The notes under the pieces are model-generated. The model ran no database searches. It saw only the letters and a program-made list of their open reading frames with translations, and had not been told where the DNA came from. A program made the position numbers and the translations under genes. Shown piece after piece: positions 4,187 to 50,974 of a DNA stretch of 64,000 bases. The stretch spans positions 5,863,001 to 5,927,000 of the forward strand of contig NZ_CP015136.1 in the NCBI RefSeq assembly GCF_001618865.1, read 5' to 3'. The first letter of the stretch is position 1; each line of letters starts with the position of its first letter. This stretch comes from Luteitalea pratensis. Its GTDB lineage: Bacteria; Acidobacteriota; Vicinamibacteria; Vicinamibacterales; Vicinamibacteraceae.

Positions 4187-4191
4187 GGCGG

Positions 4192-8792: not shown

Positions 8793-10091
8793 ATGGCCGG
8801 CGGGCCGATGAGGCAACCGGCCGTCCTCGCTGCGCTGGCCACCTGCAACCTGGCTGTTACCTTCGGCTTCCAGTGGCTGCCGGTGATGGCCCTTGGTGTC
8901 GGCGCCTCCACCGACGCCTTCTTCGTCAGCAACCTGGTACCGCAGTTGGTCCTCGCGGTGATTGGCGCCAATCTCACGAGCGTGCTGACGCCGCAGTTGT
9001 CGACGCACGAAGGCGTGCGCTTCTCGACCACCGCGTGGACGTTCGCCTACGGCCTCGCGGCGGCCGCCGTGCTCGTCAACGGCCTGCTCTGGGTGGCTGC
9101 ACCGCTGTGGGTGTCGTGGGTGGCGCCTGGTTTCGACGCATCGACGTTGGCCCTCACGCTCGACCTCGTACGCATCCAGCTTGTCGGTTCGGCGTGCTCG
9201 ATGCTGCTGATGGCGACGTGGGCGGCGGCGTACGCGCGGCACCAGTTCGTCCGCGTCGAGACCACCGGCATCCTGGCGGGGCTTGTCGGACTCCTTGTGG
9301 CGTGGGTACTGATGCCGAGTCACGGCGTGCACGCGATCGCCTGGTCCTTGGTGTTGCGCGCGGTACTCCAGGTCGTGTTCCTGGTGCCTGCGCTCGGGCC
9401 GGTGCAGCGTCTGGACTGGCAGGCGGCGGGCGGGCCGGCGGCGCTGCAGCGGCTCACGCCGCTGATGGCCGGCGCGCTGTACTATCGCGCCGACCCGATC
9501 GTCGAACGCGTGCTCGCCTCGTTCGCGCCACCCGGCCAGTTGTCGATCCTGAACCTCGGGCAACAGGCGTACGGCGCCGCAACACAGATCGTGACCCGTG
9601 CGCTCATCAACCCGATGATGCCCGGGCTCGCACGCTCCGCCGCGGCACGCGCGTGGGCCGAGTTCGCGGCCACGGTGCGGCGCCGACTCGTCCTCGTGCT
9701 TGCACTCGCCGTCGGCGGATGGCTGCTGCTGGCGGCTGCCGGGCGGCCGGTGATGGCCGCCGTCTTCGCCCGGTGGCTCGATCCGGGCGAGATCGCGCTC
9801 CTGCATGCGGTGCTGATCGCGCTAGCCGGCGTCGGGGCAGGCGGCGTGGCCGGCCAGGTGCTGACCGTCGGCTTCTATGCCTACGGCAACACGGTCACGC
9901 CCACACGGGTCGGCGTGATCGGCTTCACGCTCGGCATCCTGCTGAAGGCCGCCGGGTTCTGGTGGGGCGGAATCGTCGGGCTGGCGGTCGCCACGTCGAT
10001 CTCGTACGTCGGCAACGCCTGTGCGCATCTGCTCCTGCTCCGGCGCGATGTCGCGGCGCAGGCACGGCGCGTGGAGGTCCCGGGCCCATGA
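8793..10091 (+). CDS. MurJ/Wzx-like lipid-linked oligosaccharide flippase
   Basis: A 432-residue integral membrane protein with about twelve helices and the MOP-superfamily MurJ/MviN look: an N-terminal GASTDAFFVSNLVPQLV stretch, SVLTPQLSTHEG, and the central YYRADPIVERVLASFAPPGQL that carries the conserved charged residues. MurJ/Wzx proteins flip undecaprenyl-diphosphate-linked glycans from the cytoplasmic to the periplasmic leaflet. Placed between two GT4 genes, it is more likely a dedicated Wzx than the housekeeping MurJ. An in-frame ATG at 8808 is an alternative start. With the Wzy/WaaL-like protein at 5924 it suggests a flippase-dependent route that coexists with the Wzm/Wzt exporter elsewhere in the window. 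Confidence 0.8.
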   Translation: MAGGPMRQPAVLAALATCNLAVTFGFQWLPVMALGVGASTDAFFVSNLVPQLVLAVIGANLTSVLTPQLSTHEGVRFSTTAWTFAYGLAAAAVLVNGLLWVAAPLWVSWVAPGFDASTLALTLDLVRIQLVGSACSMLLMATWAAAYARHQFVRVETTGILAGLVGLLVAWVLMPSHGVHAIAWSLVLRAVLQVVFLVPALGPVQRLDWQAAGGPAALQRLTPLMAGALYYRADPIVERVLASFAPPGQLSILNLGQQAYGAATQIVTRALINPMMPGLARSAAARAWAEFAATVRRRLVLVLALAVGGWLLLAAAGRPVMAAVFARWLDPGEIALLHAVLIALAGVGAGGVAGQVLTVGFYAYGNTVTPTRVGVIGFTLGILLKAAGFWWGGIVGLAVATSISYVGNACAHLLLLRRDVAAQARRVEVPGP

Positions 10092-20328: not shown

Positions 20329-21621
20329 TTACAGCGAGAACCCGGCCCTTACTGCATCGTCGCGAAACATCTGGACCGTCTCCAGAGAGAACTGGTCGAG
20401 GTCCTTGCCGACGAGTTCGAGCTTCTTGAGGATGTCGTTGGTGGCGGTGATGATGTCGCAACCCACGGCGTCGGCCTGGAAGATGTTCAGGAGTTCTCGC
20501 GGACTCGCCCAGAGCAGCTCGGTGTTCGGGGCCAGGCCCGTCAACTCGCGGGCGGCCGCCATCATTGGCACCGGATCGCGGCCGGTATCGGCAACACGGC
20601 CGGCAAACACCGACACGACCGTCGCGGCGCCGCCCTTGACGGCCAGGCAGACGTCCCGCACCTGGGCCAATGTCATCAGGGCCGTCACGTTGAGCTTCAC
20701 CCCGGACTTCGACAAGCGCTCGATGAGCGGCAGAGAAGACTCGGCGCGCGTGTTGGTGATCGGGATCTTCACGTACACGTGCTCGCCCCACGAGGCTATG
20801 GACGCGGCCTGGCGCTCCATCTCGTCGAACTCGTCGGAGAACACCTCCAGCGAGAGAGGCCGATCGGGGATGGCCAGGACGATGTCGCGGGAGAACGCTT
20901 CGTAGTCCGCGATGCCAGCCTTGCGCATCAGCGTCGGGTTGGTGGTGAAGCCCTTGATGCGCGGATTGCCGTACATCTCGAGCATGCCGGCACGGTCTGC
21001 GCCGTCTGCGAAGAGCTTGATGCGAAGCGCATCGGCAGAAGGCGTCGCTTCGGCACGCGTGTCGCGGCTGATCTGATCGACGATCCAGGTCACGGCTTCC
21101 TCCAGGGAATGTACGGTCAGGTCGGCCGGTGGGTCAGGCCGGGCCTCGCGATAAGAGTAGTCGATGAAGACGGTCCGGCACCCGGCGCGCCGCCCGGCGT
21201 CCACGTCCCGCCAGCGGTCTCCCACGATGAAGGACCGCCCGAGGTCGATGTGCCAGCGCGCCGCCGCATCGACCAGCAGGCCGGGGCGCGGCTTGCGGCA
21301 CGCGCAGTCGTCGGCATTGTCGTGATAGCAGGCGGCCAACGCGTCGAGCCCAACGGCCGCGGCCACCTGCCTGTTGAGGGCATCGGCCTCGGCCCTGGTC
21401 TGCGTCCCACGCGCGACGTCGGGCTGGTTCGTGACGGCAATCGCCAGGCACCCCAGCGCCCGAACCCGGTCCACGCCACGAGCGGCCGTCGCCTCGATCT
21501 CGAGTTCGTCGACCGACGAGGGCGGATACGGCCGGCCATCTCGCACGACTGCCCGGTTCAGCACACCGTCCCGATCGAAGAAGACGGCGCGACGGCCGCG
21601 GCTCAGCGGACCGACTCCCAC
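20329..21621 (-). CDS. GmhB-type HAD phosphatase fused to a transaldolase
   Basis: A single 430-residue frame joins two enzymes. Residues ~10-175 form a GmhB-like HAD phosphatase: FFDRDGVLN with nucleophile Asp16 and acid/base Asp18, a Zn site from Cys98, His100, Cys106 and Cys108, and FIVGDRWRDVDAG. Residues ~198-430 form a TalB/TalC-type transaldolase: FADGAD with Asp206, FTTNPTLM, and Schiff-base Lys285 in HVYVKIPITN. Transaldolases swap a dihydroxyacetone unit between sugar phosphates, so this half could supply sedoheptulose 7-phosphate while the other half removes phosphate from heptose bisphosphate. GTG start at 21,621 overlaps the SIS gene by 19 bases. The kinase and nucleotidyltransferase genes of the same route lie just upstream. 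Confidence 0.87.
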   Translation of the reverse strand: MGVGPLSRGRRAVFFDRDGVLNRAVVRDGRPYPPSSVDELEIEATAARGVDRVRALGCLAIAVTNQPDVARGTQTRAEADALNRQVAAAVGLDALAACYHDNADDCACRKPRPGLLVDAAARWHIDLGRSFIVGDRWRDVDAGRRAGCRTVFIDYSYREARPDPPADLTVHSLEEAVTWIVDQISRDTRAEATPSADALRIKLFADGADRAGMLEMYGNPRIKGFTTNPTLMRKAGIADYEAFSRDIVLAIPDRPLSLEVFSDEFDEMERQAASIASWGEHVYVKIPITNTRAESSLPLIERLSKSGVKLNVTALMTLAQVRDVCLAVKGGAATVVSVFAGRVADTGRDPVPMMAAARELTGLAPNTELLWASPRELLNIFQADAVGCDIITATNDILKKLELVGKDLDQFSLETVQMFRDDAVRAGFSL

Positions 21622-22199
21622 TTGGTCTCGTGCGCCTTGAGGGCCGGGTGCGAGACGAAGAGGTGCCAGACCACCGCCTGGAACGCCTCGGCATGCGGCG
21701 TGGTGTGCGTCACGTTGACGGTGGGCACGATCACGCAGGCATCGGCCGACTTCGCAGTGTAGCCGCCATCGCGCCCGACGATCCCGACGACGCGCGCGCC
21801 GGCAGCTTTCGCCGTGTCGATCGCGGCCACCAGATTCGGGCTCACGTTCCGCTCGGCATCACCGCCGCCGACCGAGAAAATCAGGACGACGTCAGCGGCC
21901 GAGATCCGGCTCGTCGTGAGCCACGACGCGAAGACGGTCGCCCAGCCTTCGTCGTTGGTGCGCGCCGTCAACTCCGACACGTTGTCGGTCGGCGCATACG
22001 TTTCGATGCCGACGATCTTGCGGAAGTCGTTCACGGCATGCGAGGCATTGGCGGCGCTACCGCCGACGCCGAGGATGAAGAGGCGTCCACCTGCGGCGCG
22101 CGCCGCCGCGAGCACGGCCACCACGGCCTCGATGGCGTCGCGGTCCAGGGCCCGGGTGATCTCGACGACTTCTTCCAGATACTGCGCTGCAAAGCTCAC
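21603..22199 (-). CDS. SIS-domain sedoheptulose-7-phosphate isomerase, GmhA-like
   Basis: A 198-residue SIS protein; GTG at 22,199 overlaps the upstream nucleotidyltransferase stop (GTGA). The sugar-phosphate site is seen in LFILGVGGSAANASHAVNDF and in VLIFSVGGGDAERNVSPNL, and a conserved THTTPHAEAFQAVVWHLF near the C-terminus provides the acidic/His pair. GmhA converts sedoheptulose 7-phosphate to D-glycero-D-manno-heptose 7-phosphate. It diverges from E. coli GmhA in the segment after residue 50 (RKIVGIETYAPTDN), a variant expected in non-LPS heptose clusters. Adjacent genes encode the matching kinase, guanylyltransferase and phosphatase. Confidence 0.8.
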   Translation of the reverse strand: MSFAAQYLEEVVEITRALDRDAIEAVVAVLAAARAAGGRLFILGVGGSAANASHAVNDFRKIVGIETYAPTDNVSELTARTNDEGWATVFASWLTTSRISAADVVLIFSVGGGDAERNVSPNLVAAIDTAKAAGARVVGIVGRDGGYTAKSADACVIVPTVNVTHTTPHAEAFQAVVWHLFVSHPALKAHETKWESVR

Positions 22200-22939
22200 G
22201 GCTGCTCCTTGGCGTGTGAGGCACCACCACCGGCGACGAGGCGGCGCATGTCCTCGAGTCCCTCGAACGATCCCACTTCGTAGAAGCGCTCGTGCACCTC
22301 GTACCCGGCCAGTTGCCCGGCTTCGGAAAGCGCCCTGTACGTATCGGCCAGATCGACGACGGTGTCGGCGGGCATGGCGGCGATGACGTCGCGCGAGACA
22401 ATGCCGAGACCGTAATCGATGTAGTGCATCGTCGGCGTCTGCATGCGCTTGTCGTAGCGAACGGTGCCGGTGCCGTCGTACTCGACGTTGCTGCGATCCC
22501 ACTGCCCGTCGTTGCGGAACACGGTCATCAGCGCGGCCCGTCCCAAGCGGCCATAGGCCTCCTGCACCGGACGCATGTCGATCGGCAAATACGAATCGCC
22601 GTACAGCACGAACACCGGGCCGTCGAGCAGTGGAAGCGCCCGACGAAGGGCGCCGCCGGTCCCGAGCAGACGCTCCCCGTCCAACGAGTAGCGGACGGCA
22701 AGCCCATACTCGGCGCCGTCGGCCACCACCTCCTGAATGCGTTCGCCCAGGTACCCCGCACAGACGATGACCTCGGTCACACCCTCGCGTCGCAGCAGCT
22801 CGAGCTGCCAGGCAATGAAGGGGCGCCCGGCCACGTCGACCAGGGCCTTCGGGATGGTCTCGGTGATCGGCCGCAGGCGGGTGGCCAGCCCTCCGGCCAG
22901 CAGCGCCACCGGCAGCATCGCGTCGTTCGCGCCCGCCAT
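22196..22939 (-). CDS. hddC: Heptose-1-phosphate nucleotidyltransferase, HddC-like
   Basis: A 247-residue nucleotidyltransferase with ALLAGGLATRLRPITETIPK (the G-x-G-x-R-x(n)-PK signature), LVDVAGRPFIAWQL, LLGTGGALRRALPLL and VLYGDSYLPID (metal-binding Asp). Size and sequence match HddC, which makes GDP-D-glycero-alpha-D-manno-heptose from the 1-phosphate and GTP; other short sugar nucleotidyltransferases look similar, so nucleotide choice is inferred from neighbours. It starts 2 bases after the GHMP kinase stop and ends within the start of the SIS gene. Cytoplasmic and soluble. Confidence 0.8.
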   Translation of the reverse strand: MAGANDAMLPVALLAGGLATRLRPITETIPKALVDVAGRPFIAWQLELLRREGVTEVIVCAGYLGERIQEVVADGAEYGLAVRYSLDGERLLGTGGALRRALPLLDGPVFVLYGDSYLPIDMRPVQEAYGRLGRAALMTVFRNDGQWDRSNVEYDGTGTVRYDKRMQTPTMHYIDYGLGIVSRDVIAAMPADTVVDLADTYRALSEAGQLAGYEVHERFYEVGSFEGLEDMRRLVAGGGASHAKEQP

Positions 22940-22941
22940 GA

Positions 22942-23925
22942 TCAGGACTGCGTCACGACGGCGGTGCCTTCGAAGTCGAAGCGGAAGCGCACCTCCTGCA
23001 GGCCCGCCTCACGCAGCGCCCGCCGCAGCCGCGCTTTGTCCTCGGCATAGAACATCAGGAACCCGCCACCGCCGGCGCCAATCAGCTTGCCCCCCACCGC
23101 GCCGTTCTCGCGCGCCAGGTCGTACCACGCGTTGATGTGCGGGTTGCTCATATTCGCGGAGCGCTTCTTCTTGTGCTCCCAGTGCACGTTCATCAACTCG
23201 CCGAAGTGGTGCAGATTCCCGGCCTCGAGCGCCTCCTTGCTCTCGCGCCCGAGCTCCTTGATGAAATGCAGGTTGGCGACCATCTCGCGGTCGTTGTCCT
23301 TGCTCTTGGTGTCCTGCTCCTGGAGGATCGCCGACGCAGATCGCGAGTAGCCGGTGAAGAACAGCAACAGGTTGTCTTCGAGTTCGTACACCGTGTCCGG
23401 CGCGACCTTCAGCGGCCAGGCCTCGACCTTGCCGTTGGGCAGGTAGCGGAAGCAGGTCAGGCCGCCGTAGGCCGCGATGTACTGGTCCTGCTTGCCGATC
23501 GGTTCGCCGAGCTTGTCGATCTCGATCTCGCAAGCCTGTTCGGCGAGCTCCTCGGGATGGACCAGGTGCTTGCGGTGCGCATGCAGGGCCTTGAGGAGCG
23601 CCGTCGTGAAGCTGCCCGACGAGCCGAGCCCGGTCCCCGCCGGAATGTCCGCCATGCTGGCGATTTCCAGAAACGGCGCCTCGACCCCCGTCATGCGCAT
23701 CGCTTCCCGTACGATCGGGTGTTGCACGTCTTCGACCCGTTCGACGCGTTCGAGCTTCGAGTACTTCACGATCAGCTCCGGCACGAACGTGCGGTGCACC
23801 GTGATGTAGACGTACTTGTCGATGGCCGCGGCGACGACAAAGCCGCTGTGCTCGCGGTAGTACGACGGCAGGTCCGTGCCGCCGCCACCGAGGGAGATGC
23901 GTAGGGGACTGCGCGTGATGATCAT
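22942..23925 (-). CDS. hddA: D-glycero-alpha-D-manno-heptose 7-phosphate kinase, HddA-like (GHMP kinase)
   Basis: A 327-residue GHMP kinase. The N-terminus IITRSPLRISLGGGGTDLP is the sugar-binding segment, PAGTGLGSSGSFTTALL the ATP-binding motif, and GKLIGAGGGGFLMFYAED the C-terminal glycine motif. It phosphorylates the anomeric hydroxyl of D-glycero-D-manno-heptose 7-phosphate to give the 1,7-bisphosphate. Together with the SIS, GmhB and HddC-like genes immediately downstream it completes the GDP-heptose route. The ATG overlaps the Gfo/Idh stop (ATGA), so both are co-translated. Assignment is firm for the family and strong for the heptose substrate. Confidence 0.88.
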   Translation of the reverse strand: MIITRSPLRISLGGGGTDLPSYYREHSGFVVAAAIDKYVYITVHRTFVPELIVKYSKLERVERVEDVQHPIVREAMRMTGVEAPFLEIASMADIPAGTGLGSSGSFTTALLKALHAHRKHLVHPEELAEQACEIEIDKLGEPIGKQDQYIAAYGGLTCFRYLPNGKVEAWPLKVAPDTVYELEDNLLLFFTGYSRSASAILQEQDTKSKDNDREMVANLHFIKELGRESKEALEAGNLHHFGELMNVHWEHKKKRSANMSNPHINAWYDLARENGAVGGKLIGAGGGGFLMFYAEDKARLRRALREAGLQEVRFRFDFEGTAVVTQS

Positions 23926-29055: not shown

Positions 29056-29781
29056 TTATTCCGTCATGTCCCTGCGCGGCACGGCTCGAACTGCCACACA
29101 GAGATTCAACGTCTGCACCGGTATGGGCAGGGGGAAGTATGACCGCCACGCGATGTCGAAGTACTTGTCGAATTCCACCAGGATCTCTTCAAGGCTGCTG
29201 ACATGTTCGTTCCGGATGATCGGCGTGTAATCCATCCGAAACTGTTTCCGGAACAGCCGCTCTGCTGAGATCTTGCGCGCCAGTCCGTAGGCGAGGCCAC
29301 CTTCGCACGGCATGACCACGTCCAGATACCCTCCGGGCCGCAGCAGGCGGTGCATCTCGGCCAGAGCCAGCGGCAGATTCCGTAGATGCTCGAGTACGTG
29401 GATCACAACGATGCGGTCGAAGAAACCGTCAGTCCACACCTGGCGTGCTTCGATGGAGCCACAGACGACACGATCGGCCGGGAAGGCCTTCGCGAGCTCG
29501 TCGCAGAACTCCTGACGATACTCGAGGCAGTAGTAGTCCTGACGCTGCAGATCTTCGAACTTGCTATGGGCGCCCAGCCCCGCGCCGACCTCGAGTGTGC
29601 GGGTGCCTTCGCGCACTGGCAGCGTTGCAACGGCACCGTGGTTGAACTTCTCGATCAGGCCATATTTCGCAGGAAGCTCCTCGTGCCAGAGCTTCATGAA
29701 CCCCTCGCGCGCCGCCTCCTGCGCGGCGTTCAGGACGGGAGGATGCTTGGGCCACGTCGGCAGGCTGGAATCCTTGGGCAT
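29056..29781 (-). CDS. SAM-dependent methyltransferase
   Basis: Start set at ATG 29,781 (MPKDSSLPTWPKHPPVLN); an in-frame ATG at 29,871 would add 30 low-similarity residues. The 241-residue protein shows TRTLEVGAGLGAHSKFEDL (motif I), YYCLEYRQEFCDELA (acidic loop) and IVVIHVLEHLRNLPLALAEM, followed by LRPGGYLDVVMPCEGG (motif III). A C-terminal hydrophobic patch suggests loose membrane association but not a span. It lies just downstream of the large membrane protein gene (32,476-29,903) and probably methylates a glycan residue. Acceptor unknown. Confidence 0.7.
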   Translation of the reverse strand: MPKDSSLPTWPKHPPVLNAAQEAAREGFMKLWHEELPAKYGLIEKFNHGAVATLPVREGTRTLEVGAGLGAHSKFEDLQRQDYYCLEYRQEFCDELAKAFPADRVVCGSIEARQVWTDGFFDRIVVIHVLEHLRNLPLALAEMHRLLRPGGYLDVVMPCEGGLAYGLARKISAERLFRKQFRMDYTPIIRNEHVSSLEEILVEFDKYFDIAWRSYFPLPIPVQTLNLCVAVRAVPRRDMTE

Positions 29782-29902
29782 CTGTTCGTTCTGCAGTATG
29801 CGATGCCAATCTCTGGCACGAAAGCGGAGAGCGCCGCCTCCACGTGCGTGCCGCGTAGTGTATGTCGCCATGGCCACGAAGGCCAACGCGCGTCGCGCGA
29901 CG

Positions 29903-32476
29903 TCAGGGCGTCGCGCAGTCCTGCGGTGAGCTGACCTGCAGGTCGTGAATGCCCAGCAGGAGTGTGCGGCGGTCGCCATTCGACAGGGTCGGGACGTTCG
30001 ACTCATCCAGTGCCTCGAACCAGACTCGAGAGGTGCCCGCGGGTACATGCACAGGCAGGGCGAATGCGCCGTTCCCCAGTGTCGTTTCGTAGGACGCCCC
30101 GCCGGCGGTGATGCGAAGGCGGCGAACCGGCTTGCCCGACACCGAGGGGCCGAGCATGGCAACCCCGGTGAGTACCACCGATGCCGGCTCGCGCGCCGAC
30201 ACATCGACGACAGCCGCGTCGCGGCCAAGCCAGAAGAATGGCTGTCCGTTCAGGGCCTCCATGCCGTTGGGGTTCTCCACCGCGACAACCTTCGATGGAT
30301 TTGCGCGCAGGCCGACGGAGAGGTCCGCTACGCCGAGAATGAGTTCACGTTGGTCCGCAGTCGCCGACGGCACGTTGGCCGCATCCATGGGAAGAAAACT
30401 GACAGTCGAGGTACCTGCTCGCACCGGCACCTGCAGCTGCAACTCGGGAGGCGTGACGATGACGATCCGCGGTGTCTCCCCAGCGTAAGTCACCTCGAGG
30501 CGCCGTGTCGGGCCACTGACACGGGGCCCGGGAAAGATCCTGGCGGACCAGACGAGACAGCCAGCCTGGGGCGTCACCACGGTGAACGTCGTGGCGCCCC
30601 CGCCCATCCAGAAGGTCTGTCGTCCACCCCCTTGTTCGAACCCATTGGGCGTCGAGCTCCGGGTGACCACCGCCCAGCCTTGCGGGTCTGTCGCCCACAG
30701 CCGGTATCGTCTGCTCTGCCAGGCCAGCGTCCACCCGCCGCCTTCGACGACCGGCCCGGGATCCCAGGCATCCGTGAGCAGGTACTGAACGGCAGACCAG
30801 GGCAGCGCATCCGACTCCACGGAGCGTCGCACGTGGTCCAGGTCGAAATACCCTCGCGTCGTGCCGAGGCGCATCTTGACGTCGCGAAGGAAGTACGTCG
30901 CCCAGTGCTCGGCCTCGGCGTCCTCGACGAACACGCCGATCGGCTTGTCCCCCACCAACGAGGCCACGTGTTCCGCGACCCGGAAGTCGCGCATGGTCGT
31001 CAGCTGTCCTTCCCTGACGAGGGGAAGCATCGAGCGGCCACCGGCAATCACCGGAATGGCGAGCAACACGAGCGCGCACGCACTGGCCAGCAGCCGCCGT
31101 CGATGCAGCGCGAACGAAGGGACCGCCTCGGTCGATGCAAGCAGCACCACCCACCAGCCCGACAGGATCATCTTGAAGGCCCCATACGGGTAAGCCTGCA
31201 CGAACAAGAAGATCAACCCGCCCCCCAAGGGAATCACCGCAGCGGCGAGGAGGCCGTACTCACGACGACGGGCCCAGCGCACGAGTCCGGCAAGGAGCAG
31301 GGACGTCAGCAGGATGGCGACGAACGTGCGCGGCCAGAACAAGCGCAGGTACTGATGCTCGCCACCCAGCCCCCACAGGCCATTCAGGACGTGACGTGGG
31401 ATGAGCAGCGCCAGGAAGCCGCCGGCACCCGGACGGACTCCCGACGACAGGCCAGCTGACGCCTGGCTGACGAAGAACCGCATCATCGTCGGGATGTTCG
31501 GTCCGAGCAGCACGAGCGTGGTGGCAGCCCCGAGCAACGCGCGGCTGACCGTGCCCGGGGCCCGCACCTGCCATACCTGCCAGGCGGCCGACAACGCCCA
31601 CGCCGAGCCCATGACCATGCCGAATTCCGGATAGGCGTAGATCATCGCCGCCAGCCACGCGCCGAGGCCGATCCAGACGGCCGATGATGCAAGCGGCGAG
31701 ACCCAGACCAAGGCCGTCATCGCCGGCCATGCGCTGAGTGCCACGAGGTTGTCGTAATTGGTCAGGTCAACGGCGTTCAACACCCAGCCCGACCCCACCG
31801 TACAAAGGACGAACAGGATGCGGTGCTCGTGGGCCAGCGCACGGACCTCCGCAACCAGGAGGCAGGCCGAGGCGAAGCTGAACAGCACTACGGCCAACAG
31901 GAGGCCGGCGGCGCGTTGCGTATCCCCCGGGCTCGTCAGGCACGACAGCAAGCCGAGCAGGCTGCTTCCCACATGCCGCGTGTTCGCAAGATGAAACGCG
32001 AACTCGTACACGGGCCCTAGGTCGCCCCCGGTGCCGCGCGGAAACGTCCAGAGATATTGGCCGTAGGAGGCATAAGACCAGCCGTCGGGAAACCGGCTCC
32101 CGGGATAGTCGTCGAGTCCGAAGACGAAGTAGGGAAGCAGGGTGACCGCCGGGACTGCCAGGCACGCCACCAGGGCCCAGCAGGGCCGTCCGGTGAGGAG
32201 GCTGCGGTTGCGGCGCAGTTCGCCCAGCCCTCGGAGGGAGAGGACCACCGTCACGGCCCAGAGGGGCGCCACGACCACGCTGACACGCACGGCCATCGTG
32301 GCGCTCATCCCGAGCACGAGAGACCAGAAAGCCAGCGTCGCGGGCGGAGCTGCGAACAGTCGCTGACGCCAGGAGAGGCCTGGCCAGCTGGCCAGCAGAC
32401 CGACGCCGGCTGTTGTCATCACGCCCGCGGTCAGCAGGTACACCAGTAGCGAAGGAAGGAACTGCCCGTCACTCAT
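29903..32476 (-). CDS. Large GT-C-like membrane protein with tandem C-terminal beta-sandwich-like repeats
   Basis: An 857-residue protein. Residues ~10-480 contain about twelve hydrophobic helices with an early loop FPDGWSYASYGQYLWTFPRG, resembling GT-C first loops. The C-terminus holds two similar ~115-residue repeats at ~608-721 and ~734-848. Both show PNG(F/M)E, FW(M/L)G, GP-x-VSG with RRL, P-V-x-x-GTS, NVP and an LG(V/I)xDL ending. Such repeats probably fold as paired beta-sandwiches on the periplasmic side and may bind glycan. Function is unassigned; its place upstream of a methyltransferase and downstream of gmd fits a late sugar-transfer or modification step. Confidence 0.6.
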   Translation of the reverse strand: MSDGQFLPSLLVYLLTAGVMTTAGVGLLASWPGLSWRQRLFAAPPATLAFWSLVLGMSATMAVRVSVVVAPLWAVTVVLSLRGLGELRRNRSLLTGRPCWALVACLAVPAVTLLPYFVFGLDDYPGSRFPDGWSYASYGQYLWTFPRGTGGDLGPVYEFAFHLANTRHVGSSLLGLLSCLTSPGDTQRAAGLLLAVVLFSFASACLLVAEVRALAHEHRILFVLCTVGSGWVLNAVDLTNYDNLVALSAWPAMTALVWVSPLASSAVWIGLGAWLAAMIYAYPEFGMVMGSAWALSAAWQVWQVRAPGTVSRALLGAATTLVLLGPNIPTMMRFFVSQASAGLSSGVRPGAGGFLALLIPRHVLNGLWGLGGEHQYLRLFWPRTFVAILLTSLLLAGLVRWARRREYGLLAAAVIPLGGGLIFLFVQAYPYGAFKMILSGWWVVLLASTEAVPSFALHRRRLLASACALVLLAIPVIAGGRSMLPLVREGQLTTMRDFRVAEHVASLVGDKPIGVFVEDAEAEHWATYFLRDVKMRLGTTRGYFDLDHVRRSVESDALPWSAVQYLLTDAWDPGPVVEGGGWTLAWQSRRYRLWATDPQGWAVVTRSSTPNGFEQGGGRQTFWMGGGATTFTVVTPQAGCLVWSARIFPGPRVSGPTRRLEVTYAGETPRIVIVTPPELQLQVPVRAGTSTVSFLPMDAANVPSATADQRELILGVADLSVGLRANPSKVVAVENPNGMEALNGQPFFWLGRDAAVVDVSAREPASVVLTGVAMLGPSVSGKPVRRLRITAGGASYETTLGNGAFALPVHVPAGTSRVWFEALDESNVPTLSNGDRRTLLLGIHDLQVSSPQDCATP

Positions 32477-33597: not shown

Positions 33598-33753
33598 GTG
33601 AGGTCGAGAACCGGTGCCACGTGCTGACTGGCCGCCGGGCATGGAATACCGAGCGTCAGGAGGGCCGCTCAAACCGACCTAGTGTACCCCAAGGTGCCCG
33701 GGTCCCAGTGCTCGACAGCCGCAGCCGGAGAGAGGTGCGCTAGGCTGACGCGG

Positions 33754-35139
33754 ATGACCGGTCCGGCCGCGCCCGCTGTCGACGTCCAGGGACTCGACCG
33801 CGCGTTCGACATCTTCCCAAGCGACCAGGCTCGTGCGCGTCACGCACTGTGGTCGGCGGCCGCACGCCTGCCCGGGCTGGGAACGCGGGCACGGCAACGG
33901 CGCGACGCGATCGGCACCAGGACCTGGGCGCTCCGGGATGTGTCGTTCGCGGTGGGTCGGGGCGAGTCGGTCGGGTTCATCGGCGCCAACGGATCCGGCA
34001 AGTCCACGCTCCTGCATGTGCTGTGCGGAACGCTGGCGCCGTCGGGCGGGCTGGTCCGGACGTCTGGGCGCATCGGCGCGCTCCTCGAACTCGGCACCGG
34101 CTTTGCGGCCGACCTGACCGGACGCGAGAACGTGCGGCTCAGCGGGCTGCTGCATGGTCTCGACGAGGCCACGGTCGCCTCTCGCGAGGACGCCATCGCC
34201 GCGTTTGCCGACATCGGCGCCTATCTCGATCAACCGGTCCGCACCTACTCGAGCGGCATGTACGTGCGCCTGGCCTTCGCGGTGATGGCTCACGTCGATG
34301 CCGACGTGATGATCGTCGACGAGGCGCTGGCAGTGGGTGACATCCGTTTCGTGCAGAAATGCCTGGCACACCTCGAGCGCTTCCGGGCCGCCGGCGGCAC
34401 CCTCCTGTTCGTCAGCCACGATCTTCCGGCCGTGCAGCGCCTCTGCCAGCGGGTCATCTGGCTCGATCGGGGTCGGCTTCGCATGGATGGCCCCCCGCGT
34501 GATGTCACCGAGGCGTACTTCGATTCGATGATCGGTGCTCCGTCGCCGGGAAGCGGGAGTCGGGAGTCGGGAGTCGGGAGTCGGGAAGCGGGAGTCGGGA
34601 GTCGGCCAGAAGACCTCACGGCGGGCCCTGAAACGCCGCAGGCTGCCGCCCGCGCGGCATCAGCGGGCGACGACGGCGCAGAGCATGGGGGCACTTTGGG
34701 CAAGGCGCGCATCGCCGACGTTCGCCTTGTGGACGACACCGGCAGCCTCGTCGCGTCCGTGCGTGGCGGCGAGCGCCTGACGCTGTTTGTCGAAGCGGCC
34801 GGAGTCGGCTGGCTTCGGCAGCCTGTCGTCGGCTTCTACGTGAAGGACCGGCTCGGCCAGCAGCTGTTCGGCGAGAACACGCTGGCAGCGGTCACCGCGG
34901 CACCGAGGCACGCCGACACCCTCGTGGCGCGCTTCCGCTTCGTGATGCCGCGACTCTTCCCGGGCGAATACCTCGTCGCGGTGGCAATCGCCGACGGCAC
35001 GCAGGCGGACCACGTGCACCACGAGTGGCGTCACGAGGCCTGGCACTTCACGTCCGCGTGGCCAGGCGGGGCGACGGGCATGGTGGGCATCGACGTCGAC
35101 GCGTCGTGGGTCATCGCATACGACACGACGGACCGCTAA
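33754..35139 (+). CDS. wzt: ABC transporter ATP-binding protein with glycan-binding C-terminal domain (Wzt)
   Basis: Start set at ATG 33,754 (MTGPAAPAVDVQGL), giving 461 residues. Walker A is GANGSGKSTLL, the signature loop YSSGMYVRLAF, Walker B MIVDEALAVGD, and the H-loop SHDLP. From ~residue 320 a C-terminal beta-rich domain of the Wzt type (GKARIADVRLVDDTGS to HFTSAW) should recognise the glycan end before export. Its permease partner is not adjacent; the best candidate is the Wzm-like protein at 45,277. The linker (~residues 265-284) is encoded by a heptamer DNA repeat. Last codons overlap the convergent methyltransferase gene by 4 bases. Confidence 0.9.
   Translation: MTGPAAPAVDVQGLDRAFDIFPSDQARARHALWSAAARLPGLGTRARQRRDAIGTRTWALRDVSFAVGRGESVGFIGANGSGKSTLLHVLCGTLAPSGGLVRTSGRIGALLELGTGFAADLTGRENVRLSGLLHGLDEATVASREDAIAAFADIGAYLDQPVRTYSSGMYVRLAFAVMAHVDADVMIVDEALAVGDIRFVQKCLAHLERFRAAGGTLLFVSHDLPAVQRLCQRVIWLDRGRLRMDGPPRDVTEAYFDSMIGAPSPGSGSRESGVGSREAGVGSRPEDLTAGPETPQAAARAASAGDDGAEHGGTLGKARIADVRLVDDTGSLVASVRGGERLTLFVEAAGVGWLRQPVVGFYVKDRLGQQLFGENTLAAVTAAPRHADTLVARFRFVMPRLFPGEYLVAVAIADGTQADHVHHEWRHEAWHFTSAWPGGATGMVGIDVDASWVIAYDTTDR
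34548..34605. repeat. Intragenic heptamer array inside wzt
   Basis: Consecutive heptamers of the form CGGGAGT, with CGGGAAG variants, fill 34,548-34,605 in the wzt linker. Related GGGAATCGGGATTCGGGAG tracts occur near 50,738-50,763. The reading frame survives, encoding a Gly/Ser/Arg/Glu-rich linker, so the array is a tolerated, possibly length-variable insertion. Confidence 0.85.
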
Positions 35140-36866
35140 CGGTTGGCGCCAGCCAGGCGCCGCGCGACAGCACGGAGAGCACCACGCAACCGCGGCGTGC
35201 GGCGCGCGATCCCATCCAGCCGCGCCAGCGCCCTGATGGCAAGGGCCTGCTGCAATCGACGGAACTCCGCGGCCTCGCCGGCCAGGACAGCGGCCGACGC
35301 CGGCGTCGGAGCCACCACCCTGTACTCGTCGAGGTCGGCGAGCACCCGCGCTTCGCCACCGCGGGCGGCGATCTCCGGGACCTGGGCGGCCAGCGCCGCG
35401 GCGAACTCGCGCTGCACCGCCACGTCGCGCAGCAGCACCACGGCCGTCTCGTGCGCCTGCCGCAGTTCCGCCATCCGCTCGCCCAGCTGCCGGCAGAGCA
35501 TGTCGCGATCCGCAGCCAGGTCGGCCAGGCGCGCAGCCATCTGCTCGCGCCCCTCTTCACGCAGGTTCTCGAGCGCGTGCAACGCGTCGCGCGCCACCTC
35601 CACCTCACGCTCCAGGCGTTCGCGTTGGGCACGCAGGCCACGCTCGCGTGCATCGAAGTGCTCGCCCAGCTCACGTGCCTGTGATTCGAGTCGTGCGCCA
35701 GCCTCGAGCCGCAGCGCCTCGAGTTGCGTGCGCAGGTCACGTTGCTGCGTCTCGAGTTGGGCGCCCAGCTCACGCTCCCGCGTTTCGAGTCGTGTGCTCA
35801 GATCGCGCTCGCGTGCGTCGAACTGCGCGCCCAGCTCGTGTGCCTGTGATTCGAGTCGTGCACCAGACTCGAGCCGCAGCGCCTCGAGTTGCTCCCTCGA
35901 CGCGCGTTCCTGGCCGGCGAGGCGCACGTCGTGCTCCAGCGCCTGCGCCTGCAACTGCGCGCCCAGCTCGCGCCCCTGGGCTTCGAATCGTGTGCCGAGA
36001 TCGCGGACCTGCGTCTCGAGATGCACCACGTACTCGCCGACGCGACGCAACTCGCTGGTCGCGGCGTCGAGGCGTGCGGTGCCGTCGGCCTCGGTGCGGA
36101 TGGCGTGGTCCTCGAGGGCGCGGTATGTGCTCTCGACATTCCGCAGGCGGCTGACGACCGCCTGAAGGAGCCCGCCACCGGGCGGCGATCCCGCTCCGGG
36201 CACGGCGACGACGAAGAACTGGTAGACGCGCGAGAGCGGATCGGCAGCGATCATCTCGATGACACTTGCCGGGACGTCCTCGGACGACATCGGCAATTCC
36301 GTTTCCGTGACCATCTTCTCGATCGTCAGCACGTCGAGCGCGTGCAGGCCCGCCCCCGTCAGGAGCAGGTCCAGCTGCGACCGATCGAAGAAATGCAGGT
36401 GCGTCCGATCGAGCAGCCCGGTGTCGGTACGCGGGAAGCGCCCGTGCAGGAGCGAGAGGCGCACGGCGGCGTGCGCGACGTTGGGCAGGGAAATCAGCAG
36501 TCGTCCACCCGGCGCGAGCCACGACCGTACGCGGGCCAGCAGCGCCGCCGGGTCGACGAGATGCTCGAGGACGTCGAGCAGCAGGATCACGTCGAACTCG
36601 CGGCGCGGCAGGTCGTCCTCGTCGAGCGCGTCGAGATCGGCCCGCACGAACGGGATGCCGTGTGCCGCGAGCGCCTGCACGCCGGCGGCATCGCGTTCCA
36701 CCGCGGTCACGGCGCACCCGCGCGACTGGAGGACGCGGGCGACAGAACCGTCGGCGGCGCCCAGATCCAGCACCCGGCTGCCCGGCGGCACTGCGAGCAC
36801 GGCGAAGGTGTGAGCGTTGTTCAGATCGGCGAGATCGACCTCGCGGCTATACCGGATGACGGACAT
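35136..36866 (-). CDS. SAM methyltransferase fused to a long coiled coil
   Basis: Start set at ATG 36,866 (MSVIRYSREVDLADLNNAHT), giving 576 residues. Residues ~25-180 are a methyltransferase domain: VLDLGAADGSVARVLQ (motif I), VTAVERDAAGVQALA, ILLLDVLEHLVDPAALL and LAPGGRLLISLPNVAH. From ~residue 240 to 520 lies an almost unbroken coiled coil rich in Glu, Arg, Ala, Leu and Gln. A 30-residue block (LEALRLESGARLESQAHELG onward) occurs twice with few changes. WbdD-type O-antigen caps use exactly such a domain-plus-coiled-coil build to set chain length, next to Wzt; this gene is convergent with wzt here. That role is inferred. Confidence 0.75.
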   Translation of the reverse strand: MSVIRYSREVDLADLNNAHTFAVLAVPPGSRVLDLGAADGSVARVLQSRGCAVTAVERDAAGVQALAAHGIPFVRADLDALDEDDLPRREFDVILLLDVLEHLVDPAALLARVRSWLAPGGRLLISLPNVAHAAVRLSLLHGRFPRTDTGLLDRTHLHFFDRSQLDLLLTGAGLHALDVLTIEKMVTETELPMSSEDVPASVIEMIAADPLSRVYQFFVVAVPGAGSPPGGGLLQAVVSRLRNVESTYRALEDHAIRTEADGTARLDAATSELRRVGEYVVHLETQVRDLGTRFEAQGRELGAQLQAQALEHDVRLAGQERASREQLEALRLESGARLESQAHELGAQFDARERDLSTRLETRERELGAQLETQQRDLRTQLEALRLEAGARLESQARELGEHFDARERGLRAQRERLEREVEVARDALHALENLREEGREQMAARLADLAADRDMLCRQLGERMAELRQAHETAVVLLRDVAVQREFAAALAAQVPEIAARGGEARVLADLDEYRVVAPTPASAAVLAGEAAEFRRLQQALAIRALARLDGIARRTPRLRGALRAVARRLAGANR

Positions 36867-38808
36867 CGGCGCCCTCCATCGTCGTGTCCACGAGCCAGGC
36901 AGCCCAGTCCGTGGAGGTCGGCACACCCGCCATCGCGCGATCGATGGCCGCACGATGTGCGCGCCAGGTATCGACGTCGCGCAATCGCGCGACGACCGCC
37001 GCCGCAAAGGCGACCGCATCGTCGTGCACCGCAATGACTTCACCCTGCAGGCCCTCGAGACCCTCGGCGCCAACGGTAGTCGCGACCACCGGCACGCCGT
37101 ACTGCAAGGCCTCGACGGTCTTGAGCTTGACGCCTGCGCCGAACCGCAGTGGCGCGATTGCCACCCGCACGCGGCGGTAGAAGTCCGCCAAATCCGGGAC
37201 GAAGCCCTCCGCATGCAGGTGCATGCCCTCGAACCGATCCAGCGGCGCGGGCAACGAACCGGTCACGCGCACACGCGCCCACGGCACCTCGGCGACGACC
37301 AGCGGCAACACCTCCGTGACGAACCACTCGAGCGCGTCGCCATTGGGGGAACTCGCGCCGGCCAGCCAGCCGGCGACGAAGGCGATGTCGGCGCGTCCGG
37401 CCAGCGAGGCCTCGGTCGGCGCGGCACGACACAGCCATGGTGTCATCACCCGCACGCGCCGTGCGCCATGGGCTTCGAAGAACGCGGCTTCGTCGCGGGA
37501 CACGCAGACGATCTCGTCGGCGCAGCCGGCAATCGCGATCTCCGCCTCGAGCCACGCCGCCGCCTGCGTCCTCAGCAAGGACGCCGTGGCGTCGTCGTCA
37601 GCGAGGCCAGCCTGCCGCAGCAGTCGGCGGTGATAGAGGGCCTCGGCGTCGTACACCAGCCGCGGCCGCCGCTCCGGCGGGAGTCGTTCGAAGAGGGTGC
37701 ATGCGCGGCGTGCGTTGTTGGGGCGCGACACGATGACGACGTCGCTGGCGCCGACCTCGCGCTCGAAAGCCTCGTCACCACCGTCCACCACGGCGATCCC
37801 GGCGCCAGCCAGGGACGGCACGAACCTGGCCTCGAGTTCGGTTGGCAGGACGCGCACGCGCGCGCCACAGTCAGCCAGCCCGTGCAGCATGTCGGCCATC
37901 CGATCGAAACCGGAGCCGATCCCATGGCTCGGCACCCGATCGTCGACCACGAGCACGCGAGGCCCCGTCCCCTCGAGGCGCGCCACCGCAGCCGCCTCGG
38001 CCAACGGCACATGGGCAGCCTCGGTCGGCGCCGCCACGCGCGACTCCAGCAATGCCCCGCGCTGCAAGACCAGTCGCTGGTGATGGCGGGCAAACAGGAA
38101 CTGCTTGAAGTGTGACGAGGAGCTTGCCGACTCGGCGTGGATCACCTCGCTGCGCGGGTCCACCCAGACCTCCAGGCCGACGAGATCCAGCGCCAGGCAG
38201 AAGTCGACGTCCTCGTAGTACGCGGGATGGTACTGCTCGTCGAAGCCGCCGACGGCATCCCAGGCCTCGCGGCGCACCAGCAGCGCACACGCCGAACAGT
38301 AGTCGACGCGACGACGCCAGCGCCACGCGAGCGAGGCCCGCGACGTGCCGCGGCCAAACGGGCGAGTGGTGCCGTCCCGCCAGATGATCGAACCGACTTC
38401 CTGGACGAGCCCGTCACCGCCGATCACCCGCGGCCCGACCGCCCCGGCCCGTGGGCGCTCCGCCATGGTCTGGAGCAATGGCTCGAGCCATCCCGGCGAG
38501 ACGAGGACGTCGTCATTCAGGAAGGCGATGAATGGTGCGACGCTGCTTCGCACGCCGAGATGACAGCCACCGGCAAAACCGCGATTGGTCGGACTGTCCA
38601 CGATTCGCACCCCACTGGCGGCGTGCGCCACGTCGCGGACCGCGGTGTCGGCGCCGTTGAGGACAACGATGACGTCGGGCGGGGTGGGGCTGTCGGCGTG
38701 GGCGTGCCGGAGGGCGCCGAGACAGGCCGCAAGATGCGCGGCCTGCGAGACCGTCGGAATGATCACGCTCACCTCCGGGGCGCAATCCTGCGGACGGTCT
38801 GAGTTCAT
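36847..38808 (-). CDS. Two-domain glycosyltransferase (GT2 N-terminal, GT4 C-terminal)
   Basis: A 653-residue protein from ATG 38,808; an ATG at 38,826 would add six residues. Residues ~10-260 are a rhamnosyltransferase-like GT2 domain: VSVIIPTVSQAAHL, DSPTNRGFAGGCHLG, FIAFLNDDVLVSPGWLEPLL (D-D-x metal site) and CALLVRREAWDAVGGFDEQY. Residues ~290-640 form a GT-B domain with GSGFDRMADMLHGLADCG and a donor-binding stretch RFGAGVKLKTVEALQYGVPV. Such fusions add two sugars, or act as a polymerising transferase. The gene overlaps the methyltransferase/coiled-coil gene by 20 bases, so both are made together. Confidence 0.82.
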   Translation of the reverse strand: MNSDRPQDCAPEVSVIIPTVSQAAHLAACLGALRHAHADSPTPPDVIVVLNGADTAVRDVAHAASGVRIVDSPTNRGFAGGCHLGVRSSVAPFIAFLNDDVLVSPGWLEPLLQTMAERPRAGAVGPRVIGGDGLVQEVGSIIWRDGTTRPFGRGTSRASLAWRWRRRVDYCSACALLVRREAWDAVGGFDEQYHPAYYEDVDFCLALDLVGLEVWVDPRSEVIHAESASSSSHFKQFLFARHHQRLVLQRGALLESRVAAPTEAAHVPLAEAAAVARLEGTGPRVLVVDDRVPSHGIGSGFDRMADMLHGLADCGARVRVLPTELEARFVPSLAGAGIAVVDGGDEAFEREVGASDVVIVSRPNNARRACTLFERLPPERRPRLVYDAEALYHRRLLRQAGLADDDATASLLRTQAAAWLEAEIAIAGCADEIVCVSRDEAAFFEAHGARRVRVMTPWLCRAAPTEASLAGRADIAFVAGWLAGASSPNGDALEWFVTEVLPLVVAEVPWARVRVTGSLPAPLDRFEGMHLHAEGFVPDLADFYRRVRVAIAPLRFGAGVKLKTVEALQYGVPVVATTVGAEGLEGLQGEVIAVHDDAVAFAAAVVARLRDVDTWRAHRAAIDRAMAGVPTSTDWAAWLVDTTMEGADVRHPV

Positions 38809-38856: not shown

Positions 38857-39315
38857 GTGATGCCGCGCCGCTTCCTGTGTCTCGTCATCGTGATCATCGG
38901 CAGCCAGGCCTGGCCGCTCTCCCTCCTGTGGCCGGCGTTGCCCGGCAGTGAAGCTGGCCGTTCACCAAGCAGTGATGTCCTGATGCAGGCGCTGCCGCTG
39001 CCCGACGCCGCGCAGCGCATCGACGCACTCGATCACGCGCTGCCCCTGTCACCAGGCGTCGTCGTCGGCCACGCGCCAGGCGATCAACTCGCCAGCGCCT
39101 ATTTCGTGCTGTCCATGCGGCTCTGGCCTCGTCGCGTGAGTTACGTCGCCTGCGAGCCCTCGCCGCACCTGGAACAGTTCCGGTCGCCACACCCCATGCC
39201 CGGGCTCACCTGGCGCATCGACCTGTTTCCGGCAGTCGCCACGCCGTTGCGCGCCAGCGCCTCGCCCCCACCCCAGGACGTCGCGGCACTCTGCGCCGCG
39301 ACGCCGCCGCCGTGA
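38857..39315 (+). CDS. Small hypothetical exported or membrane-anchored protein
   Basis: A 152-residue unrecognised protein; GTG at 38,857 is followed at once by an ATG at 38,860, and GAGGGGGCG precedes it. Residues ~5-30 (RFLCLVIVIIGSQAWPLSLL) form a signal peptide or anchor. The rest carries several prolines and two Cys residues (YVACEPSP; LCAATPPP). Its stop overlaps the GTG of the next gene, a GT-C-like membrane protein, so it may be an accessory subunit of that transferase. No function can be assigned. Confidence 0.55.
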   Translation: MMPRRFLCLVIVIIGSQAWPLSLLWPALPGSEAGRSPSSDVLMQALPLPDAAQRIDALDHALPLSPGVVVGHAPGDQLASAYFVLSMRLWPRRVSYVACEPSPHLEQFRSPHPMPGLTWRIDLFPAVATPLRASASPPPQDVAALCAATPPP

Positions 39316-40613
39316 CCGGACGGGTACTCGCCGCGATTGCCGTGAGCTGGGCGGCCGGGGGTGGCGTGGTGGCGCTCGCCTGGCCCCGCTCTCACTCGCT
39401 GCCGTGGGTCGCATGGCTGGCGCTGGCCGGCCTGGTTGGTCCGTTCACCGTCGGCGCCGCGCTGTTAATCGCAGGGAACGCCGGTGTGACGGCGCATCTC
39501 TCGGTGCCGTGTATCGCCGGACTCGCCCTCGGCGGCTTCGCCTGGGGCTCGAGGCGACGGTGGAAACAGTTACCGGTGGCCGCGCGGACACCGGCGCTGG
39601 TGATGGTGACGCTCGTCCTGGCGATCGGCTGGAGCGCCTGGATCGCCGGACGCACGCACCTCGGGTGGGACGGCACGGTCGTGTGGTACCAGAAGGCGCG
39701 CATCCTCGCGGCGGGTTCGGGGACCATGCCGACGACGACCCTCGCCGACCCGACACGCTCATGGACCGCGCCCGACTACCCGCTGCACGTGCCGCTGGCG
39801 ATGGCATGGGTGCGGTTGTGGCAGCCGGTCGAGGACGAGCGGGCGATGAAGGCGCTGCCCGCCGCATGGTGCGCGGCGATCCTGCTGCTGGTGGCGGCCG
39901 CGGTCCTCGAGCGGTCCGGATCGGCCTCGTGGACGGTGGCCGCCGTGATGGTGATCGCGTCCGCGCCCCGCCTCCTGATCGGCGAGGGCAGTTTCACGAG
40001 CGGCTACGGTGACGGTCCCGTCGCCGGGTTGCTGGCGGCCCTGATATGGCTGCTGTGGCGCAGCGACCACGCCGCGGCACGCGCGTGGTGGCCGCTGCTC
40101 GCGATCGTCGCCGCGGCGCTTGCGGCGACCAAGCAGGAGGGATCGGTGGCCGTCCTGGGTGCGGCCGTCGTGTGTGCGCGGTATGGGCGTGAGTGGCGCC
40201 GGATCTGTTTTGCCGGCCCCGCGCTGGCACTTGCCCTCGGTTGGCAGGCATGGACCATCGGCGCAGGCGCGTCGAGTGGGATGGCCTACGAGTGGCACGG
40301 CGTCGCCACGTCGGTGGCACGGCTCCGGCCGATCGTGACCGCTTACTTGTCCGAGTTTGCCAATATCCGCACCTGGGGAGTTTTATGGCCGAGCTTGACT
40401 CTCCTGGCGGTCCTCCAGCGACGTACCCTGCCTGGTCCAGAAACGGGGATCGTGCTCACCGTCTCGGCTGTAAGTGCTTTGGCCTTTGTAGGTTCCGACT
40501 GGCCAGACGTGAGCATGCACCTAAATGTCACTGTCCCGCGTCTAACTGGTGCGATTGTACCTTCGATAGTAGTCGCCTGTTTCGGCGCCGGTAGTTCGCA
40601 AAAACAGAACTAA
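39312..40613 (+). CDS. Multi-spanning membrane protein, GT-C glycosyltransferase-like
   Basis: A 433-residue membrane protein with about ten hydrophobic helices; GTG start overlapping the preceding stop. After helix 3 the loop THLGWDGTVVWYQKARILAA has the Asp/Trp pattern of lipid-sugar-dependent GT-C enzymes, and further on come EDERAMKALPAAWCAA and TKQEGSVAVLGAAVV. No signature is strong enough to name a family. The last ~250 bases (from ~40,370) are noticeably less GC-rich than the rest, which may mean the 3' end is less constrained or was acquired separately. Paired with the small protein encoded just upstream. Confidence 0.6.
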   Translation: MTGRVLAAIAVSWAAGGGVVALAWPRSHSLPWVAWLALAGLVGPFTVGAALLIAGNAGVTAHLSVPCIAGLALGGFAWGSRRRWKQLPVAARTPALVMVTLVLAIGWSAWIAGRTHLGWDGTVVWYQKARILAAGSGTMPTTTLADPTRSWTAPDYPLHVPLAMAWVRLWQPVEDERAMKALPAAWCAAILLLVAAAVLERSGSASWTVAAVMVIASAPRLLIGEGSFTSGYGDGPVAGLLAALIWLLWRSDHAAARAWWPLLAIVAAALAATKQEGSVAVLGAAVVCARYGREWRRICFAGPALALALGWQAWTIGAGASSGMAYEWHGVATSVARLRPIVTAYLSEFANIRTWGVLWPSLTLLAVLQRRTLPGPETGIVLTVSAVSALAFVGSDWPDVSMHLNVTVPRLTGAIVPSIVVACFGAGSSQKQN

Positions 40614-40749: not shown

Positions 40750-40765
40750 TGGCACCGTGGTTGCA
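40750..40765 (+). promoter_or_regulatory. Sigma-54 (RpoN) promoter of the PEP-CTERM gene
   Basis: TGGCAC (40,750-40,755), five bases CGTGG, then TTGCA (40,761-40,765) matches the -24/-12 consensus TGGCAC-N5-TTGC fully. Transcription would start near 40,776, about 26 bases before the ATG at 40,802. Sigma-54 control of PEP-CTERM genes through PrsK/PrsR is known in other bacteria, which makes this match more credible. An enhancer site for the activator was not identified. Confidence 0.75.
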
Positions 40766-40801
40766 ATGACTAGGATGGCGCCCCCCCGGGCCATAAAGTC
40801 C

Positions 40802-45276: not shown

Positions 45277-46056
45277 GTGGCGGCCAACGATCTCCGTGCC
45301 CTCGTGGCCTACCGCGGCCTGCTCCGCGGCTTCGTCCAGCGTGATCTCACCGTCAAGTACAAGGGCTCCCTGCTCGGCGTGGCGTGGTCGCTGCTGCACC
45401 CGCTCGTGATGGTGGCTGTGTACACGCTCGCATTCCGGTACGTGGTGCGCGTGCCCATCGAGCGCTTCCCGCTGTTCCTCCTGAGTGGCCTGCTGCCGTG
45501 GATGTACTTCGCCAGCGCACTCTCGGCGGCGACCAGCTCGATTGCCGACAACGGCACGCTCGTCCGCAAGGTGGCGTTCCCGCGGGCGGTCTTGCCCCTG
45601 GCCGCGGTGGCCTCTGCCCTCGTGCAGTTCGCGCTGATGTACACCGTGCTCGTACCGACGGCGCTGATCATGGGGGCCGGATTGTCGTTTGCGTGGGTGG
45701 CGCTGTTGCCGGTCGTGGTGCTGCAGACGGCCTTCACCGCCGGGCTCGGGCTACTGCTCGCCACGGCCTATGTGTTCGTGCGCGACGCCCGCCATCTGCT
45801 CGACGTCGCCCTGCAGGTGTGGTTCTGGCTGACGCCGATCATCTATGCGGCCAGCCTCGCCCCGGCAAACCTCCGCCGGTGGCTGCAGTTCAACCCGATG
45901 CTGCACTTCGTCACCGCGTACCAGGACATCGTCACGAAGCATGCGGTGCCGTCGCTGGCGACGTTTGCGCTGCTCGCGGTGCTCGCCGCCGTCTCCCTCG
46001 CCACCGGCTGGACGGTCTTCGGCCGCGCCCAGAAGCGGTTCGCCGAATACGTATAG
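45277..46056 (+). CDS. wzm: ABC-2 type glycan export permease (Wzm)
   Basis: A 259-residue protein with six hydrophobic spans and the ABC-2 motif PFTRAVLPLAAVAS-type region (here FPRAVLPLAAVASALVQ), and VKYKGSLLGVAWSLLHPLV at the N-terminus, the coupling-helix region of Wzm/RfbA proteins. GTG start. With a Wzt-type ATPase it moves finished, lipid-linked polysaccharide across the inner membrane. The only glycan-type ATPase in this window is at 33,754, about 10 kb away and separated by ten genes on both strands. A TACACT -10-like hexamer at 45,262-45,267 precedes the start. Confidence 0.88.
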   Translation: MAANDLRALVAYRGLLRGFVQRDLTVKYKGSLLGVAWSLLHPLVMVAVYTLAFRYVVRVPIERFPLFLLSGLLPWMYFASALSAATSSIADNGTLVRKVAFPRAVLPLAAVASALVQFALMYTVLVPTALIMGAGLSFAWVALLPVVVLQTAFTAGLGLLLATAYVFVRDARHLLDVALQVWFWLTPIIYAASLAPANLRRWLQFNPMLHFVTAYQDIVTKHAVPSLATFALLAVLAAVSLATGWTVFGRAQKRFAEYV

Positions 46057-50702: not shown

Positions 50703-50764
50703 GTCACTCACCGGCCTTCGGCATTCGGCCTTCGGCCTTGGGAATCGGGATTCGGGAGTCGGTT

Positions 50765-50849: not shown

Positions 50850-50903
50850 TTCTGCGTTCGGCGTCGGGCGTCCGCGTTCGGCGTTCTGCGTTCGGCGTTG
50901 GAC

Positions 50904-50973: not shown

Positions 50974-50974
50974 G

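Follow-up and report, generated by a model that had tools for sequence, protein, structure and literature searches.

The protein P0001 (857 aa), encoded in a stretch of 64,000 nucleotides of Luteitalea pratensis (contig NZ_CP015136.1; the whole stretch is referred to as the window), is probably a periplasmic, lipid-donor-dependent glycosyltransferase of the GT-C type, in which two C-terminal domains resembling carbohydrate-binding modules (CBMs) hold the acceptor glycan. Its gene lies within a locus for a surface polysaccharide that includes the genes of an ABC exporter (Table 1) and occurs in a single copy in its own genome. A GT-C enzyme is favoured because of the topology of the protein together with the content of the locus, which holds Wzm, Wzt with a Wzt_C domain, a methyltransferase with a putative ruler, Gmd and a GT2 protein.

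Table 1. Features of the window that bear on P0001, with positions counted from the first letter of the window.
Feature	Position	Strand	Basis or remark
P0001, 857 aa, multi-spanning core and twin C-terminal domains	29903..32476	-	ORF, ATG start, stop 29903-29905
P0001 residues 1-480, hydrophobic core	31037..32476	-	hydropathy; putative GT-C assignment
P0001 residues 481-599, hydrophilic juxtamembrane region past the last hydrophobic segment, presumably periplasmic	30680..31036	-	loop 453-461
Repeat 1, P0001 residues 600-728, predicted CBM35/CBM6-like beta jelly roll	30293..30679	-	alignment and model
Repeat 2, P0001 residues 729-857, 37% identical to repeat 1	29906..30292	-	fold by homology
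Gmd, GDP-mannose 4,6-dehydratase, immediately upstream of P0001	32608..33672	-	TIGR01472, 434 bits, cut-off 415
Methyltransferase adjoining P0001	listed ORF 29056-30228, true start uncertain	-	
GT2 protein, two genes downstream of P0001	28191..28943	-	candidate lipid-linked donor synthase
Wzt, ABC transporter ATPase with C-terminal Wzt_C (O-polysaccharide-binding)	33682..35139	+	ABC_tran 7e-17, Wzt_C 3e-26
Methyltransferase domain followed by a proline-free segment, next to Wzt	35136..37214	-	candidate chain terminator with coiled-coil ruler
Wzm-type ABC-2 membrane subunit of polysaccharide exporter	45277..46056	+	family match
Wzy_C protein (O-antigen-ligase domain)	5924-7360	-	family match
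MurJ/MVF-family flippase	8793..10091	+	possible donor flippase, unproven
P0005, second orphan multi-spanning protein, 653 aa	18354..20315	-	weak collinear alignment with P0001 residues 101-473

The tail of P0001 is a true internal tandem duplication. Residues 604-721 and 730-848 are identical at 44 of 120 positions with three gaps (BLASTP, E 3e-19), so that the units which the first-pass annotation had aligned at about 608-721 and 734-848 were right to within a few residues. The Smith-Waterman score of repeat 1 against repeat 2 was 159, as compared with a mean of 30.3, a standard deviation of 5.3 and a maximum of 56 in 1000 shuffles. Since the codon-aligned DNA of both copies is identical at just 184 of 372 positions (49.5%), the duplication is an old one. 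All motifs named earlier were found in both repeats, namely PNGFE at 610 and PNGME at 736, FWMG at 622 and FWLG at 748, GPxVSG, RRL, AGTS, NVP, as well as LGVADL at 714 and LGIHDL at 841; E614/E740 and D718/D845, which were considered with a view to the Ca2+ site of a CBM6/CBM35-type module, are also kept.

Neither repeat matched a Pfam family at E<=10 in a search whose HMMER filters drop most weak matches, in keeping with the earlier remark that the unit of about 115 residues fits no recognised family, and the whole protein gave no match at E<=1 in Pfam (24736 models) and NCBIfam (18950 models), GT-C families included, or in PHROGs. Pfam holds models for Emb proteins, and these sequence domains were absent from P0001 at E<=1; likewise, the P0001 gene was not among the nine places in the source genome that match PF13231. 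PDB sequence searches with P0001 or the repeats returned just antibody chains at E of at least 0.41 and no CBM. The Wzt_C family (PF14524) remained unmatched by either repeat, while the Wzt of the same locus, taken as a positive control, matched; Wzt_C is, as the repeats may be, a glycan-recognition domain of this locus, but it is carried by Wzt and is a cytoplasmic exporter domain. As judged by these searches, the repeat domain is a new sequence family.

The fold was approached with an AlphaFold model of repeat 1, calculated from a two-row alignment with repeat 2 as the sole other row, which reached a mean pLDDT of 70.5 and a pTM of 0.64 and was almost all beta. The beta-sandwich that the first-pass annotation had proposed to look for by structure prediction was recovered in this model with ten strands. 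A Foldseek search against the PDB gave 27 matches with E<=1e-3 (best E about 1e-4), 25 of which were CBM structures or glycan-acting enzymes that we read as carrying one, the other two being an intraflagellar-transport chain (2yc4) and GITRL (4e4s). CBM35/CBM6 modules, or enzymes read as their bearers, headed the list (6ueh, 2w3j, 2cdp, 2vzr, 2w46), with modest TM-scores to CBMs of about 0.37-0.58, mostly 0.45-0.56 at the top. When VIA-align 2 was run on the best 1000 Foldseek matches, ranks 1-9 were all occupied by CBM35 (Z 10.1 to 9.5, rmsd 3.0-3.3, 106-115 of 129 residues aligned), and the program's own note gives 7-8 as the typical best Z where there is no clear match. Rank 1, 4qaw, is presumably Xyn30D carrying a CBM35.

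From this model repeat 1 is assigned with moderate confidence to the CBM35/CBM6-type jelly rolls, and repeat 2, by its homology (37% identity), should have the same fold. Of the novelty claimed for the unit, the part concerning sequence stood and the part concerning structure did not, because the fold predicted for it, the CBM6/CBM35 jelly roll, is well known; the model therefore backs the idea of glycan binding and not that of a novel fold. Glycan binding is the likely role of the twin domains. CBM35 and CBM6 resemble repeat 1 in length and in the fold predicted for it (about 110 residues aligned at Z about 9-10), but their identity to the repeats is about 12-18% with no Pfam match, and they sit on a hydrolase, whereas the repeats sit on a membrane transferase-like core.

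In this core (residues 1-480) hydropathy marks 13 segments, with a weak one at 341-359, which bears out the many-spanning core postulated earlier and by hydropathy gives the many-spanning hydrophobic layout sought in a GT-C protein; GT-C enzymes are described with 7-13 helices (PMC11127046). Segment 4 is followed by a loop of 71 residues (120-190) with D122, D123 and D131, which is placed in the periplasm because the K/R-rich loop 80-100 (five K/R in 21 residues), presumably cytoplasmic under the positive-inside rule, precedes it. By the same rule the tail (481-857) is placed in the periplasm because loop 453-461, with three K/R in nine residues ahead of the last hydrophobic segment, should be cytoplasmic, so that both loop 120-190 and tail come one hydrophobic segment after a loop rich in K/R. 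The periplasmic position proposed for the repeats agrees with this reading of hydropathy and charge. In GT-C enzymes one or more acidic catalytic residues are located in an extracytoplasmic loop or domain, usually after helix 1, and it is typical of these enzymes that the first large loop in the periplasm is acidic; in P0001 the loop comes after segment 4 instead, and D122, D123 and D131 are putative catalytic residues. The core also has a YPE motif at 282-284. Its topology is a GT-C-like layout; the class itself we infer, because no GT-C family matched and the AlphaFold model of residues 1-599, for which the alignment offered a single remote row, had a pLDDT of 38.2 and a pTM of 0.25 and is unusable for fold. 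The transferase-like core of the first-pass annotation is thus favoured by topology and locus, and lacks backing from Pfam, NCBIfam and the model.

A possible relative of the core is P0005, which is encoded in the same window, has no Pfam or NCBIfam match, was found in one of 297 genomes of the phylum, its own, and is like P0001 in layout and in the YPE motif. Among 12 comparisons, uncorrected for their number, the P0001 core reached Z 2.7 with P0005 and Z 2.9 with P0002 (6 of 300 class-preserving shuffles reached the score in each case) and Z -0.6 to 1.6 with ten other ORFs of the genome, namely nine PF13231 places and one GtrA place, each represented by the long frame of highest hydrophobicity, which in some cases may be the wrong one. 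BLASTP of P0001 against P0005 gave E 2.7, and kinship of the core with P0005 or P0002 is suggestive only. The 30% identity given for the core alignment A2 was set aside as evidence, this being an optimised gapped alignment. A third membrane protein without a family match is encoded at 39312-40613 (+); it has 433 aa, 12 hydropathy segments, a 67-residue loop after segment 4 and a GT-C-like layout.

Among the genomes searched, sequence comparison found P0001 in its own genome only. The full-length protein was recovered in one of 297 genomes of the phylum (E<=1e-3) and one of seven of the family, itself in each case, and in four of 193 of the class at E<=0.01, namely itself and three at E 0.0045-0.0071, the three genome sets overlapping. 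These three matches (L027-L029) were rejected as relatives, since none of the ORFs around them looked like a membrane protein with this kind of tail. The repeat profile (A1) matched 12 of 396 genomes, its own and 11 others (E 3.6e-4 to 0.0096), and the three of the 12 rows that were examined (L008, L009, L014) were rejected by eye; the core profile (A2) found only its own two members in the 396 genomes. Beyond the phylum, sampling comprised one scan of genome contigs, one extra genome, viral contigs, plasmids and phages. In the scan a stretch of 30 residues of repeat 2 was matched at five loci with 57-60% identity, two of which (L020, L024) were read, appeared by eye to be a flagellar-hook-like protein and were taken as chance matches, and the extra genome, which bears L020, gave a 39-column repeat match (E 4.2e-4). 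No relative of P0001 was present in viral contigs, and tblastn searches of plasmids and phages, with P0001 or its tail as query, gave no match or single matches at E 0.3 and 1, which covered 6% and 23%; P0005 had one match to plasmids at E 9. In a control search the Wzm of the same locus was recovered in 69 of 99 genomes, with identities as low as 26%, and therefore the negative result for P0001 in the one phylum sampled is not due to a blind search.

With regard to the neighbouring genes, the GT2 protein resembles polyprenyl-phosphate-hexose synthases; its best NCBIfam models were those of a dolichyl-phosphate hexose transferase and of AglJ, and it scored far below the cut-off of either. GtrA is a usual flippase partner; none was found in the window, which counts against the proposed GT-C enzyme, and the one match of the genome lies far away. 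In the protein next to Wzt the proline-free segment extends over 267 residues with a periodicity of 3.6 residues, and, a methyltransferase joined to a helical ruler having been described for ruler-type chain terminators (PMC11127046), it is by analogy a candidate for a WbdD-like chain terminator with a molecular ruler.

Further observations concern other parts of the window. The block at 20329-23925 (-) has an ORF matching both HAD-hydrolase and transaldolase, a SIS-domain protein, a nucleotidyl transferase and a GHMP kinase; it looks like an NDP-heptose cassette, in which the HAD-transaldolase fusion in one ORF seems unusual. A PEP-CTERM surface protein lies within the polysaccharide locus at 40757-41836 (+), and the 441 aa protein at 46160-47485 (-) is without Pfam or NCBIfam match and has a few hydrophobic segments with hydrophilic flanks. 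From 47605 to 56763 follow genes resembling sugar catabolism (FGGY kinase, L-fucose isomerase, BNR-repeat protein, TonB-dependent receptor and DHDPS-family protein). ORFs 2915-4225 (+), 10021-10872 (+) and 18814-19743 (-) look like wrong-frame translations and were not regarded as genes.

By its architecture P0001 would be a variant of the GT-C enzymes already known to carry CBM tails; the enzyme type itself is not new. A close parallel is ORF12 of Citrobacter youngae O1, a GT136 ribofuranosyltransferase, which according to PMC11127046 (2024) has a multi-spanning GT-C core and a C-terminal CBM that bound unmodified O-polysaccharide. Its locus, like that of P0001, comprises an ABC transporter for O-polysaccharide and a Wzt CBM, together with a terminator with coiled-coil ruler and a lipid-linked donor route, for both of which the P0001 locus has candidates. 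As described, however, ORF12 bears a single CBM, the fold of which is immunoglobulin-like, and has a phosphoribosyl transferase as donor synthase (PMC11127046), whereas P0001 has two homologous domains, predicted to be jelly-roll-like, and a GT2 protein as candidate synthase. Similarly, the mycobacterial arabinosyltransferases EmbA/B/C and AftD combine GT-C cores with periplasmic CBMs of jelly-roll or beta-sandwich type (PMC7341804, PMC3044687). In EmbC the acceptor is bound by a C-terminal jelly roll that resembles CBM families 6 and 36, and mutation of a tryptophan in it abolished acceptor binding and lipoarabinomannan synthesis (PMC3044687). Yet the two C-terminal subdomains of EmbC have different folds (PMC3044687), the two periplasmic CBMs of EmbB are located at the N- and C-terminus, respectively (PMC7341804), and P0001, in which the copies are homologous, tandem and C-terminal, is without any Pfam match, unlike the Emb proteins (GT53). 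In the literature nothing was found on a GT-C enzyme with tandem carbohydrate-binding modules in an O-antigen context, nor, by titles and beginnings of abstracts, on an O-antigen glycosyltransferase with CBM in Acidobacteria.

As a periplasmic GT-C-type enzyme, P0001 would depend on the GT2 protein or another synthase to put a sugar on polyprenyl phosphate, and on a flippase, possibly the MurJ-family protein of the window, to turn the lipid-linked sugar over. The multi-spanning core would then bind the lipid donor, with the acidic loop 120-190 as active site, while the twin jelly rolls would project into the periplasm and hold the acceptor, which is probably the chain that Wzm/Wzt export, and P0001 would thus act on a polymerised chain. 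Two modules in series might give higher avidity or two sites that read along the chain. An elaboration that we put forward only tentatively, regarding it as unlikely, is that the tandem pair forms a two-site clamp on the ABC-exported O-polysaccharide, in which the copies diverged to read two positions of the chain (for instance a side-chain site and the terminus) and would thus set where or how often the core adds sugar.

It is doubtful, on the other hand, that the core is a GT-C-type transferase with twin jelly rolls that are mainly structural or dock proteins (as lid, dimer contact or exporter link) and bind no glycan. A jelly-roll fold by itself does not show function, BcsB and GITRL being also among the fold matches, and ORF12 truncated of its CBM was still active, therefore glycan binding need not be essential (PMC11127046); yet the best-ranked fold matches of repeat 1 are carbohydrate-binding modules, and GT-C enzymes that have been characterised with tails of this kind use them to bind glycan (PMC11127046, PMC3044687, PMC7341804). 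We find it rather improbable that P0001 is a polysaccharide polymerase, a ligase or an export-accessory membrane protein with twin domains that handle glycan. The missing GT-C family match, the core model at pLDDT 38 and the export and ligase-type genes of the locus would fit such a protein, but Wzm, Wzt and a Wzy_C protein distinct from P0001 already exist in the window, and an acidic first large loop in the periplasm, as predicted here, is typical of GT-C enzymes. That the twin domains have a fold unlike CBMs, the model being an artefact of its two-sequence alignment, is very improbable despite the two rows, the spread of mean pLDDT from 57.6 to 70.5 among the five models and the values below 50 at model residues 102-108, since the pTM of 0.64 and a VIA Z near 10, above the background, argue against it.

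If P0001 is a GT-C-type transferase with glycan-binding twin domains, a design hitherto found in mycobacterial arabinan synthesis and enterobacterial side-chain addition, a GT-C core plus CBM, would reach into an isolated sequence family, there with two homologous modules in tandem. Residues 600-857 would then be a compact, soluble pair of domains, the glycan specificity of which would be directly testable.
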